Assembly: GCA_029263715.1 (NCBI GenBank)
Contig: JAJUFP010000006.1
Span: forward strand, 1 to 64,000
DNA from: Nitrososphaera sp.
Lineage (GTDB): Archaea; Thermoproteota; Nitrososphaeria; Nitrososphaerales; Nitrososphaeraceae
Length of the DNA: 64,000 nucleotides
Reading direction: 5' to 3'
The notes under the pieces are model-generated. The model did not search any database and was not told the DNA's origin. It saw nothing but the letters and a program-made list of their open reading frames with translations. The position numbers and the translations under genes are program-made. Shown one piece after another: positions 9,887-14,187 of the stretch; the first letter of the stretch is position 1; every line of letters starts with the position of its first letter.

Positions 9887-10507
9887 TCAAGAATCCTTTA
9901 CAGGGGAACTAACACCATCTGGCGGCCACGGTATAATTGCTCCAAGTTGCTCGAGCTTCTCGCCAGCCAAAGTTAAATCGAAGATGTCCATATTGCCGTC
10001 CTTTACTACCACCATGTACTCTTTACCTTCTTTATCCATAATTACTCCAAAACCCTTCTTTACCTTTACAATGTCCTTGATTGATACTTTCTTTACTTTG
10101 TATTCATGAAGAAATACTGCCTTTTTCTTCTCTATCTGAGATGGAGTAAGCTTGAAGTTAGTTATGATAATTGCTTTTCTTCCCCCAAACCTGACATCAT
10201 TAGAATTAATCCTAGAAGAGAAAAGTACCTTCATTGCCTCTGCAAGAGATTCCAAAAACCTTTGCACATCTACTTCCAACCGTTGCTTCGGATTACTTTC
10301 GATCGTAAGGTGCATGTAGAGTTTACCTTCTCTTTCGTATATGGTCAAATGTCTGTCTCTATCTTGAATTCGCTTTGTAACCAAACCTGGCGTGCCACTT
10401 CTCTTTGCTGAAGTTATTTTAATTATCATTCCTTCATAGCGAAATTCCTTCACAGTTTCTGGGATCCGAGAATCTAAATCATTTGTCTGAGTATCTTTCG
10501 CTGCCAT
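9887..10507 (-). CDS. Unknown protein of the island (206 aa)
   Basis: The protein is soluble, Lys-rich and alternates beta strands with one helix (VQRFLESLAEAMKVLF). Strands such as MIIKITSAK, RHLTIYEREGKLYMHLTI and KAIIITNFKL suggest one or two beta-sandwich or barrel domains. There is no signal peptide. A TATA-like AGATATAACC on the minus strand, about 30 nt upstream of the ATG, suggests its own promoter. It is the most distal gene downstream of the protease, and I recognise no family. Confidence 0.6.
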   Translation of the reverse strand: MAAKDTQTNDLDSRIPETVKEFRYEGMIIKITSAKRSGTPGLVTKRIQDRDRHLTIYEREGKLYMHLTIESNPKQRLEVDVQRFLESLAEAMKVLFSSRINSNDVRFGGRKAIIITNFKLTPSQIEKKKAVFLHEYKVKKVSIKDIVKVKKGFGVIMDKEGKEYMVVVKDGNMDIFDLTLAGEKLEQLGAIIPWPPDGVSSPVKDS

Positions 10508-10593
10508 GTCGTCTTTAATGTATTCGATTTATGTAAGGTTATATCTTTGGATTCACGCACCCAGAATTAGCAGGGATCAGTAATGCAGTAGCA

Positions 10594-12084
10594 TCACTCT
10601 GAGATATATGAAGAGATAGGTTCTAATTTCATACGTTTAAGTTTCCTTAGTTTTTCTGCTTTCATTTCATATTTCTTTGCCTCTCGTGGTTTCTCACTAT
10701 GAAATAGAACAATTGCTTTTACTTCCCAATTTTTAGCATCGAGAGGATCTAATTCCAGAGCTTTACTAACACACTTCAAGGCCTCTTTCGTCTTATTAAT
10801 TTCTACAAGAGCTATTGCTTTGTTACTCCATATCCCTGCATTCCCTGAATCAATACTAAGAGCTTTATCGAAGCATAAAATTGCTTGATCTTTGTCGCCT
10901 TGATGTAGGTATGATAAACCCTTGTTACTCCATATCCATGCCCACTTAGGATTTATCTTAAGAGCTCTATCGAAGCATTCAATAGCCTTCTTAAATCGTC
11001 CCTTTTTATCTAGATTTAGTCCTTTTTCATTCCAAGCGGTTGCATTATTCGGATCAATCCTCAAAGCTTTGTTGGCGCACGTCAGAGACTCATTGAATTT
11101 TCCTAATTCAAATAGTGCGTTTGCTTTGTTTGCTAGTGCCTCCGCATTCTCCTTATCTAGTTGCAGACATTTATCAAAAAGACAAACCGCCTCTTTTAAT
11201 CTGCCAAGGTGAAGGAGGGACAGAGCCTTATTATACCACAGATAGGATGCATCTGGCCGATATTTTAGGACATAATCAAAACAGGCTAGAGCTTCATGCC
11301 ACTTGCCAGAGTCTCCTAATGCAGCACCCTTGTTAGTCCATGCATCCAAATAACGAGGATCATTTATCACTTTATCATAGTATCTTATTGCTTTGCTGAA
11401 TTCTCCATTATTCAAATACTGCCAAGCTTTATCCATGACATACTGAATATTGAATCCCGATGAAGGCATTATCATTTTAGCCCTAATTCCGGATCTATCA
11501 AACACAATATCCGTTGGAATAATGTACGCCGAATTCTCGTCCTTTGCTTCAAATATTCCAACTACTGTCCAATCGCCAGCATAACACACAGGAGCGCCAC
11601 TATAACCTACTTTGAACGATCCATCAAATTTTATAACATTAACATTTACTTCGGGCTTAACATTCCATTTTCGCTTTCCTGCAATCATTTCTTTATTCCA
11701 TTGTATTGGACAGGAAACTTTCGCAAGATGACCCTCTACGTGATTTCCTGATGGAAAGTGTGCTAGCTCTTCGTCTGAAAAGCCCCAAACTACAACATCT
11801 ATATCATGGTACGTCTCGGTTCTAACTTCTAGCGGTTTGAAGATCGATTTTCTTACTCTTAGGATAGCTAGATCAATTCTAGGGTCTGAATACTCTTCTA
11901 GCCACTCTGCAGCAAAGAGTTTTTTGTTATCTCTGGTTACGAATATTTTATCAGCACGAGCAATGTTGTGATGACATGTTATGCAATATCCCCTCTTGAA
12001 AAAGAACCCTGTCCCTAAGAAATTATTATTTTCATCTATAATCTTGACAATATTATCCCTTATGTCATTCAGAGTTTGTGTCAT
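10594..12084 (-). CDS. Trypsin-like serine protease with C-terminal TPR repeats
   Basis: Residues 1-200 form a trypsin/HtrA-fold domain without a signal peptide, hence probably cytoplasmic. GTGFFF at 24-29, catalytic His39 in ITCHHN, Asp71 in RIDLAIL and Ser162 in GYSGAPV make an intact triad. From about 213 to 483 there are roughly eight TPR repeats with 34-residue spacing (motifs such as AWNEKGLNLDKKGRFKKAIE and WIWSNKGLSYLHQGDKDQAI). Bacterial relatives combine such proteases with TPR or NTPase sensors and small Trypco partners in biological-conflict systems. The start overlaps the upstream Trypco1-like gene by 20 nt, showing an operon. Confidence 0.85.
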   Translation of the reverse strand: MTQTLNDIRDNIVKIIDENNNFLGTGFFFKRGYCITCHHNIARADKIFVTRDNKKLFAAEWLEEYSDPRIDLAILRVRKSIFKPLEVRTETYHDIDVVVWGFSDEELAHFPSGNHVEGHLAKVSCPIQWNKEMIAGKRKWNVKPEVNVNVIKFDGSFKVGYSGAPVCYAGDWTVVGIFEAKDENSAYIIPTDIVFDRSGIRAKMIMPSSGFNIQYVMDKAWQYLNNGEFSKAIRYYDKVINDPRYLDAWTNKGAALGDSGKWHEALACFDYVLKYRPDASYLWYNKALSLLHLGRLKEAVCLFDKCLQLDKENAEALANKANALFELGKFNESLTCANKALRIDPNNATAWNEKGLNLDKKGRFKKAIECFDRALKINPKWAWIWSNKGLSYLHQGDKDQAILCFDKALSIDSGNAGIWSNKAIALVEINKTKEALKCVSKALELDPLDAKNWEVKAIVLFHSEKPREAKKYEMKAEKLRKLKRMKLEPISSYISE

Positions 12085-12400
12085 TAAAATCCCAATTCAA
12101 GGTAATCCTAAGGCTTGCCTCGCCAGATGCTTTTACGACAAATAGGCTCCCTTCAGCAGTTAAGCTTAATCCGAATTCAACTGAAGCAGATGAAGGTTTG
12201 TTACCTGGTACATCTATACTTTTCCTAATTGATTCGGATATGGGATTAATTACATCTAGCAATTTGTCCAAATTCCTGTTTATCTTTTCTAGTCCTCCTG
12301 CTTGGACAACCTTGCCTTTGGTTTGACTAATGTCGGAAGATTCTACAAGTACTGTCTGATTGTTCGCCTTAAGCTCTAGTATTTTCCCCACAGCTAGCAA
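12065..12400 (-). CDS. Trypco1-like (trypsin-co-occurring domain 1) protein
   Basis: The 111-residue product ends with ASVEFGLSLTAEGSLFVVKA and ASLRITLNW, which is the hallmark pattern of the Trypco1 domain described next to trypsin-like proteases in bacterial conflict loci (family knowledge from memory). The N-terminal half carries a short strand pair and an amphipathic helix (LEKINRNLDKLLDVINPISE). The start is TTG at 12400 or GTG at 12391. Direct overlap with the protease gene supports the pairing. The protein is presumed to bind or regulate the protease; this is not known for archaea. Confidence 0.75.
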   Translation of the reverse strand: MLAVGKILELKANNQTVLVESSDISQTKGKVVQAGGLEKINRNLDKLLDVINPISESIRKSIDVPGNKPSSASVEFGLSLTAEGSLFVVKASGEASLRITLNWDFNDTNSE

Positions 12401-12417
12401 CTAGCAATAATTCTAAA

Positions 12418-12428
12418 GAATATAAGTT
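12418..12428 (-). promoter_or_regulatory. TATA-like promoter of the Trypco1-protease pair
   Basis: On the minus strand AACTTATATTC lies about 20-30 nt before the TTG/GTG start region (12400-12391), the expected spacing for a short-leader archaeal promoter. It suggests that the pair can be transcribed separately from the membrane-protein gene upstream. Confidence 0.45.
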
Positions 12429-12447
12429 TTGTATGCGATAAGGTGTA

Positions 12448-13200
12448 CTAGAAGAATAAGCCGCTACGGTCGGCCAAAAGCCAAAATGCGGTTCTCAACT
12501 GCTTCATAATTGCAGCATCTCCCTTCTTATCTAATGATTTGACATCTGGCAGGTTCGGAAACCATCTACGTATTACATGTTCGTAAAAGCTAACAAAAGG
12601 ATCACGACCTGCTACGCTAGAGATCAAATAAGATACAGTGGTAGATATCAGTCCGGATGCAAAAGTTAGCAAGGCTGAATCATAGTACTTGTTGACGATT
12701 TGTTCACCTGCCATCTGTCCGCTGATAAAACGGGGTAAGTCAAGTAGAAAGAACCAGACATCAGCTTGGTTTTCTGATAAGCCACTTGAGAAGAACGCAA
12801 CAGCTATAGCAGTCCAATATACTCCCCAAGAACCAATCCCAACAATTACTAATGCAGAAATTATAGCAAACTTCGGGTAACGATACAGTCTCTTTATCTT
12901 ATTTCCATAGGCCAGATAAAAGCTAAAAACTGAAGCTGCTATTATCAAACCTACAACAATTGGATGAACTAGAGGACTAACTACGAGGATCATGTGTTGT
13001 ACGTCTAAGCGAAATAGGAAGAGAGGCTCTAAGAACAGTCCAATTATTGCATATGACAGGGTCTGGTCAATCAATGAGTCCCAATCCCTTTTTGCTAAGC
13101 AGTAAACATACGAAACAACCGTCCACATGATCCGATATTCTTGATTTGTGCTTTTATTCATTCTCCCTAATATTGCATTGATTGTTAAATTCAGCGACAT
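12448..13200 (-). CDS. Multi-pass membrane protein of the island
   Basis: The 250-residue protein has about four hydrophobic stretches (roughly 48-66, 70-98, 110-138 and 178-198). An N-terminal soluble part and a charged cytoplasmic C-terminus (VIRRWFPNLPDVKSLDKKGD) flank them. No enzymatic motif is seen. It lies 47 nt upstream of the Trypco1-like gene and downstream of the cyclase-like gene on the same strand, so it could be a membrane effector or anchor of the system. That role is inference from context. Confidence 0.6.
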   Translation of the reverse strand: MSLNLTINAILGRMNKSTNQEYRIMWTVVSYVYCLAKRDWDSLIDQTLSYAIIGLFLEPLFLFRLDVQHMILVVSPLVHPIVVGLIIAASVFSFYLAYGNKIKRLYRYPKFAIISALVIVGIGSWGVYWTAIAVAFFSSGLSENQADVWFFLLDLPRFISGQMAGEQIVNKYYDSALLTFASGLISTTVSYLISSVAGRDPFVSFYEHVIRRWFPNLPDVKSLDKKGDAAIMKQLRTAFWLLADRSGLFF

Positions 13201-13371
13201 ATGATCAGTTTTACACTTAATCTTCTATCAATGATGGGTTTGCAGCTTTTCATGCGTCAAAGAGGAGATTTCTATTATTACTTCATAAATCGTGCCATTG
13301 AATTAGTCTGTACTAGATATTCAAAGTTTGATTTTGGCGTTTGGAAGATGGAGGCTAGGAATGCAGTCGAT

Positions 13372-14187
13372 TCAGATATAATTAAATGCTCGGCCTGAAA
13401 TATACTCGTAGAATTTCACTGTATTTCTCCACTTAATTGAATGGTTGAAGTCAGTTGTTTTCAAGCCTTCATTTATTTTCTTCTCTATCTCGAGGCTTCT
13501 CTCCTTAATGGTATTCTCATGTTTTCCTTTTTCGGAAAGTAAATCTGAGACCTTTATCCAATTCAGTGCCCAACCGGAAGGTTCTAACCCGATTTTAAGG
13601 GGCACTGGGTACTGTACGAATAGTTCTGCAGCCTCTATTGGAGGTGATTTGTTAGATAATAAGAGATTCGCACTCGGAGCAGCCGAAATACCTATCCATT
13701 GTGGCTGTTCGTAGTACTCTGCAGCCTCAAATAGGGCTGATCCAACAATCATTTTTCCCGTTTCATAAAAATCACCTATGCTTATTGCGCCGCGCAAGAA
13801 AATCTCTTTTTCAAACATTTGAGTAAAAAATAGGGGCAAAAAGGCGGCTGTAGACCTAAGAATCCGTTTGGGAGTAATTTGATCTTTATATAATAGAAAC
13901 TCATGCTTAGAAATCGATAAGGTTATGATAATTGTGTCAGAAAATGCTTTCAATTTGATTTGCAAAGTGCTTGGCAACTTGGCCCATTGTTGATTTTTTA
14001 GATTAATAGGTTGTTCCCATTCATTCAATATTTTTTCATACTTTGAAATGAAAGATTCAACATCTTCCAGAGACGCTTTCTTTCCAAGCTTGGCTTTGGT
14101 TCCAATATTATCAAGAAAAATCACTCCTCCATACCGCCAATTTTCATCCTTTGAGGCAGGAGTCTGAGAAGTTCGATTATTCATCAT
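13372..14187 (-). CDS. Nucleotidyl-cyclase-fold protein of the island
   Basis: The layout matches class III cyclase-like domains. GGVIFLDNIGTKAKL places Asp26 in the first strand, KAFSDTIIITL places Asp84 in the beta-hairpin, and FLRGAISIGDFY (130-141) with IVGSALFEAAEYYE (147-160) is the typical second half (xRGAI-x-G, then GxAL-x-A). Both presumed metal Asp residues are present, but substrate-specifying residues cannot be judged by eye. The protein is soluble, with no sensor domain. Adjacent membrane and protease genes recall signalling-type immune loci, but function is unproven. Confidence 0.6.
   Translation of the reverse strand: MMNNRTSQTPASKDENWRYGGVIFLDNIGTKAKLGKKASLEDVESFISKYEKILNEWEQPINLKNQQWAKLPSTLQIKLKAFSDTIIITLSISKHEFLLYKDQITPKRILRSTAAFLPLFFTQMFEKEIFLRGAISIGDFYETGKMIVGSALFEAAEYYEQPQWIGISAAPSANLLLSNKSPPIEAAELFVQYPVPLKIGLEPSGWALNWIKVSDLLSEKGKHENTIKERSLEIEKKINEGLKTTDFNHSIKWRNTVKFYEYISGRAFNYI

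Follow-up and report, generated by a model that had tools for sequence, protein, structure and literature searches.

A Trypco1–trypsin gene pair with a TPR-only protease in an ammonia-oxidising archaeon

The window, a stretch of 64 000 nucleotides from a Nitrososphaera sp. contig (JAJUFP010000006.1), carries on its minus strand a Trypco1 gene immediately followed by the gene of a trypsin-like peptidase, which as read from the sequence form an NTPase-free build of the Trypco1–trypsin modules with tetratricopeptide repeats (TPRs). We consider it somewhat better than an even chance (roughly 0.55) that these two genes arrived by lateral transfer and make up a proteolytic module of the Trypco1–trypsin kind known from bacterial conflict systems, inducible and switched by its TPRs. 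The pair is probably a rare and simplified relative of those systems. Its novelty lies in the TPR-only, NTPase-free build and in its occurrence in ammonia oxidisers, while archaeal Trypco1 was already known. Trypco1–trypsin systems now extend to ammonia-oxidising archaea, which are globally important soil nitrifiers. Trypco1 was defined by gene neighbourhood only (PMC7159879). The pair comes close to the smallest natural version of such a system (two genes, without NTPase or extra adaptors) and offers a compact, testable form of an uncharacterised system, one that could reveal which part Trypco1 plays towards the trypsin domain (inhibiting, activating or feeding it) and the type of signal that a repeat-only sensor requires.

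The two proteins and their kinship to known systems

The Trypco1 gene (12065..12400, minus strand; CU044_2847 family) encodes 111 amino acids when read from a TTG at 12400, or 108 from a GTG at 12391 (MGKILELK...), the latter being the likelier start because of the alignment with relatives. The first-pass annotation had recognised a Trypco1 pattern in this protein and proposed an HMM search, and our Pfam scan bore this out with a match to PF19493 (65.4 bits against a cut-off of 24.6; E = 7.3e-18; profile positions 4–97 of 98), accompanied by a match to the NCBIfam model CU044_2847_fam (NF041216; E = 8e-15). Its stop codon, TGA, lies within the protease gene, and by direct reading the overlap (12065..12084, minus strand) is exactly the 20 nt previously claimed, which suggests translational coupling of the two proteins. 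The AlphaFold model of Trypco1 (pLDDT 46) gives only an outline, strand–strand–long helix–strand–strand, and comparison of the profile with the PDB returned chance-level matches only. Conserved positions fall mainly in the C-terminal strand pair.

The protease gene (10594..12084, minus strand) encodes 496 amino acids. Residues 24–177 (11554..12015, minus strand) match the full Trypsin_2 profile with the cut-off passed (E = 4e-13), and the triad can be read directly as H39 (CITCHH), D71 (DPRIDLAIL) and S162 (GYSGAP). The region C-terminal of this domain is wholly occupied by TPRs, eight 34-residue repeats by direct reading from residue 213 to 483 (10636..11448, minus strand), seven stretches of which reach significance with TPR_1 in the Pfam scan. 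We found no hydrophobic segment, signal peptide or transmembrane (TM) helix in the protein (maximum KD19 of 0.83), so the enzyme should remain cytoplasmic. The intact triad, the missing signal peptide and the approximate number of repeats had all been noted at first pass, correctly in each case. Among the best 25 of 38 Pfam matches in the protease, all were of trypsin or TPR type. In the AlphaFold model of the full protease the TPR region forms 16 helices (pLDDT 80–92 across residues 281–480), while the trypsin domain was modelled poorly because an alignment was lacking. Among solved structures, the repeats come closest to canonical peptide-binding superhelices, OGT and consensus TPRs for example, and the trypsin domain to HtrA, DegS and DegP. 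The PADLOC models LmuA and RT-Protease matched the protease domain, and the PADLOC matches in general were limited to that domain or to the TPRs.

Kaur et al. (2020) coined the names Trypco1 and Trypco2 for domains that frequently, and to the exclusion of one another, neighbour trypsin-like VMAP peptidases in the conflict systems of multicellular prokaryotes, systems of which the authors mention a few archaeal occurrences (PMC7159879). The bacterial conflict connection drawn at first pass is thus documented. Another source treats Trypco1 as an adaptor (PMC10907252); in the literature searched, where these two articles alone name Trypco, we found neither an experiment on any Trypco1 nor a statement of its role. 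The Trypco1–trypsin–VMAP (vWA–MoxR) ternary system (PMC7159879) resembles our pair in having Trypco1 just upstream of an N-terminal trypsin domain and in being intracellular, patchy and mobile, but it comprises VMAP-M/C, MoxR and vWA in three or four genes, whereas the pair has none of these, carries TPRs and consists of two genes. No VMAP-M or VMAP-C region was present behind the peptidase domain among the best 25 of the 38 Pfam matches, and a VMAP-C search of the genome itself gave no match, with the controls of that search equally silent; the same Pfam library did detect VMAP-C in Nostoc and Acaryochloris proteins. The pairs at three loci on Streptomyces or cyanobacterial plasmids (L040, L099 and L105) and at one archaeal locus (L006) have the gene order and trypsin module of the window in common, but there the trypsin is followed by an NTPase and often WD40 repeats, in contrast to the TPRs alone of the window protease.

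The nuclease–protease pairs of Hachiman, AVAST and Lamassu also place the partner upstream and the trypsin downstream (PMC12799240), although their partner is an MBL-fold pro-nuclease and ours is Trypco1, without the C-terminal part of HamA, Avs or LmuA. No MBL-fold nuclease lies upstream of the protease, where Trypco1 is found instead and the genes preceding it lack an MBL match. It is the trypsin domain that activates the pro-nuclease in Hachiman and AVAST, and forced oligomerisation turns the Hachiman one on (PMC12799240). In Caulobacter LypABC, a bacterial CARD-NLR, the peptidase serines of the trypsin-like LypA and LypC are required for lysis (PMC13236601). TPR-CHAT (Csx29) of type III-E CRISPR systems offers a works-like comparison only: its protease activation is relayed through an eight-repeat TPR domain (PMC10028731), but Csx29 is caspase-like with an RNA-guided partner, whereas the window protease is of trypsin type and lacks a CHAT domain among the best 25 of its 38 Pfam matches. 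HtrA/Deg proteins, although nearest in solved catalytic structure, possess a signal or TM anchor and a PDZ domain, unlike the window protease with its TPRs, its Trypco1 partner, no export signal and no PDZ among the same best 25 of 38 matches. Identity with the VMAP ternary system, the nuclease–protease pairs, HtrA or TPR-CHAT was rejected, the parts that define each of them not being seen at the locus (for domains within the protease, among the best 25 of 38 Pfam matches). When compared by HMM with Trypco1-associated trypsins, the window domain scored 40.7 bits and the HtrA of the same genome 36.2 bits, so it is not clearly closer to them.

Occurrence in archaea and on bacterial plasmids

Trypco1 was found in three of 201 genomes (the genome under study and 200 relatives), each from a different genus of Nitrososphaeraceae, and the same three were the only ones among 400 genomes of the order. 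Extending the search to the whole phylum added one more (G416), from another archaeal class, where a transposase-like gene fragment is followed by Trypco1 and then by a trypsin-NACHT protein. Trypco1 is also present in Methanosarcina acetivorans, a control genome of the search. Trypco1 is thus rare in the archaeal groups searched, yet not new to archaea; the annotation's view of an archaeal pair as unusual holds with regard to rarity and has to be tempered by the Methanosarcina genome and by the mentions in PMC7159879. Scans with a Trypco1 alignment returned only an already known relative (G040) from genome contigs and nothing from viral contigs.

Close orthologues of the trypsin domain (E < 1e-30; 44% and 38% identity) were restricted to two of the 200 relatives, G040 and G043, and both lie directly behind Trypco1. 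In the former (Nitrososphaerales archaeon CRAIB_MAG96) the protease likewise has eight TPRs. In the latter (L008:4821-6225) several frameshifts or in-frame stops interrupt both genes of the pair but not the metabolic genes next to them, a pattern suggestive of joint decay, with assembly error a possible explanation. Approximately 1.4 kb upstream of the pair in G040 lies a gene (L007:984-4709) for a 1241-amino-acid protein with PDZ, a clostripain-type (C11) peptidase and PsbP-like repeats. Another member of the Nitrososphaeraceae, G055, encodes a protein with trypsin, a weak NTPase-like region and pentapeptide repeats (L109:1356-5018); no Trypco1 was found in that genome. A divergent gene nearby (L109:5505-5813) encodes 102 amino acids with a strand-rich ITLKP end, possibly a small partner of another kind, and its interpretation as a distant Trypco1 was rejected at an hhalign probability of 0.1%.

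In bacteria, tblastn located Trypco1 on plasmids of Streptomyces, Arthrobacter, Embleya and cyanobacteria and in none of the phage records, so that there is no sign of phage carriage. A trypsin gene lay immediately downstream of Trypco1 in all 14 plasmid loci that we opened, a non-random sample drawn from the Trypco1 searches in which two unannotated trypsins (L103 and L104) were identified by their His and Ser motifs alone, and also at the archaeal locus in G416. A fifteenth locus, in which the Trypco1 neighbour is divergent on the opposite strand, came independently from a search that started from the trypsin domain. The scanned partner trypsins carry VMAP-M/C, NACHT, nSTAND1 with WD40, or TIR with AAA_35, and those with VMAP-M/C are followed by MoxR or AAA and FGE genes. 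The recurrent pairing sought in the proposed neighbourhood survey is hence seen in the two relatives, in G416 and at the plasmid loci. Neither of the outcomes that the first-pass annotation had named as contrary to its proposal was encountered: similarity to Trypco1 is detectable, and the close homologues of the protease keep the small partner. Pairwise distances among Trypco1 and among trypsin sequences are correlated (rho 0.79; 0 of 5000 permutations as high), a co-variation that matches co-inheritance but that shared species history alone could also produce.

A low-GC block downstream of guaA

The pair lies within a putative acquired island not mentioned at first pass, a block of approximately 4.3 kb (9887..14187, minus strand; within 9.8–14.2 kb) with five co-directional genes and a GC content of 38–40%, as against 48–57% for most genes around it and 50–57% for the surrounding chromosome. 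The block belongs to a 186-kb contig of an assembly of 1.92 Mb (94% complete) and ends 165 nt from guaA, downstream of that gene. The stretch between c8089 and guaA measures 5.7 kb here compared with about 1.0–1.3 kb in the relatives G016 and G013; it contains remnants in G016, where the genes either side of the site are conserved, and an unrelated low-GC gene in G013. These differences between members of the genus in the sequence downstream of guaA (the 14352 region) suggest a variable insertion site. We found no convincing direct repeats at the borders of the block, and terminal repeats or an integrase were not found. The low GC of the block, together with the presence of Trypco1 in only three of 400 genomes of the order, makes lateral acquisition very probable. 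Bacterial contamination was rejected, since the same 186-kb contig carries a guaA 82–89% identical to that of other genus members. No VMAP, MoxR, vWA or nuclease gene adjoins the pair (its neighbours are without Pfam matches above the cut-off), and we saw no obvious executioner or substrate gene adjoining it. The gene at the downstream end of the block (9887..10507, minus strand) encodes a 206-amino-acid protein of no known family.

Possible mechanism and competing readings

In the mechanism that we propose for a TPR-switched module, Trypco1 would be co-produced with the protease through the gene overlap and would bind the N-terminal trypsin domain, either keeping it inactive or presenting a substrate to it. 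The eight-repeat TPR superhelix would capture a protein or peptide derived from an invader or from stress, and this binding, perhaps with clustering, would turn the trypsin domain on. The active enzyme would then cut one or a few intracellular targets, and the cell would die, cease to grow or mount a defence response. In this scheme the TPRs would take over the sensing and switching role that a STAND or VMAP NTPase module has in the bacterial relatives. Precedents are the partner-gated trypsin modules of Hachiman and AVAST (PMC12799240), the trypsin-like LypA and LypC (PMC13236601) and the activation of Csx29 through its TPRs (PMC10028731). A role in defence or regulated suicide is our best guess by analogy, because of the company that Trypco1 keeps and the accessory, decaying distribution of the pair, and Trypco1 itself may be a brake, an activator, an adaptor or a substrate, the sequence fitting any of these. 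That the pair forms a minimal two-gene archaeal suicide system, in which the TPR superhelix of a ligand-gated, NTPase-free immune protease directly senses an invader protein and frees the trypsin domain from its dedicated gate, Trypco1, is proposed tentatively.

The tails of chaperones are often bound by TPRs. Such binding and the nearness of the trypsin domain to HtrA, DegS and DegP among solved structures would both suit a housekeeping protease for cytoplasmic quality control, whose TPRs would hold chaperones or misfolded clients, with Trypco1 as a chaperone-like cofactor. Such a function is nonetheless unlikely for a gene pair whose Trypco1 occurs in three of 400 genomes of the order, which sits in a low-GC block at a variable site and which has decayed in one of its orthologous loci (G043); moreover, the only other Trypsin_2 protein of the genome resembles an ordinary membrane-anchored HtrA, and the bacterial partners of Trypco1 are conflict proteins.

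Trypco1 might instead be the substrate of the protease, a pro-effector whose cleaved form is active, as with HamM and its trypsin-fused partner. The gene order does match that of the nuclease–protease pairs, but a protein of about 110 amino acids without a known enzymatic domain makes this rather improbable, and its conserved positions, which are not decisive here, gather mainly in the C-terminal strand pair and not round a variable loop. Still more doubtful is an addiction pair of toxin–antitoxin type, its toxin being the protease and its antitoxin Trypco1, that keeps the island without any antiviral sensing: the small overlapping partner upstream, the low-GC context at a variable site and the plasmid residence of the bacterial relatives agree with it, whereas the sensor-type C-terminal modules of those relatives and the eight TPRs here suggest control by a ligand, not simple neutralisation.

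The least probable reading is a larger unit in which the multi-TM protein, possibly with the 271-amino-acid protein, serves the protease as substrate or executioner. Although all five genes of the block share its low GC and direction and homologues of both proteins lie near defence genes, neither gene has a detectable counterpart, by inspection, among the neighbours of the pair in G040 and G043, and 271-amino-acid homologues also occur without the pair. The multi-TM protein (12448..13200, minus strand; 250 amino acids; 47 nt upstream of Trypco1), whose link to the pair is putative, gave no family match, and its sole homologue found among the relatives (L097:6162-6737, 31% identity) has a BsaWI-type restriction enzyme and a DNA methylase as neighbours. 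The 271-amino-acid protein (13372..14187, minus strand), likewise only putatively linked to the pair, has no match in Pfam, PDB or PADLOC. A class III nucleotidyl cyclase, considered from its motifs, was unsupported by Pfam, the PDB profile or hhalign comparison. Its family, with homologues at L058:5295-6371, L059:4848-5648, L060:4941-5720 and L063:4739-5563, conserves the motifs FLD.LG, SDTIII and RG.IS.G and resembles a so far undescribed effector domain of defence systems. One homologue has Mrr_N fused in front and belongs to an element that also encodes a family B DNA polymerase of viral type, and another directly follows cas7-cas5-cas3.
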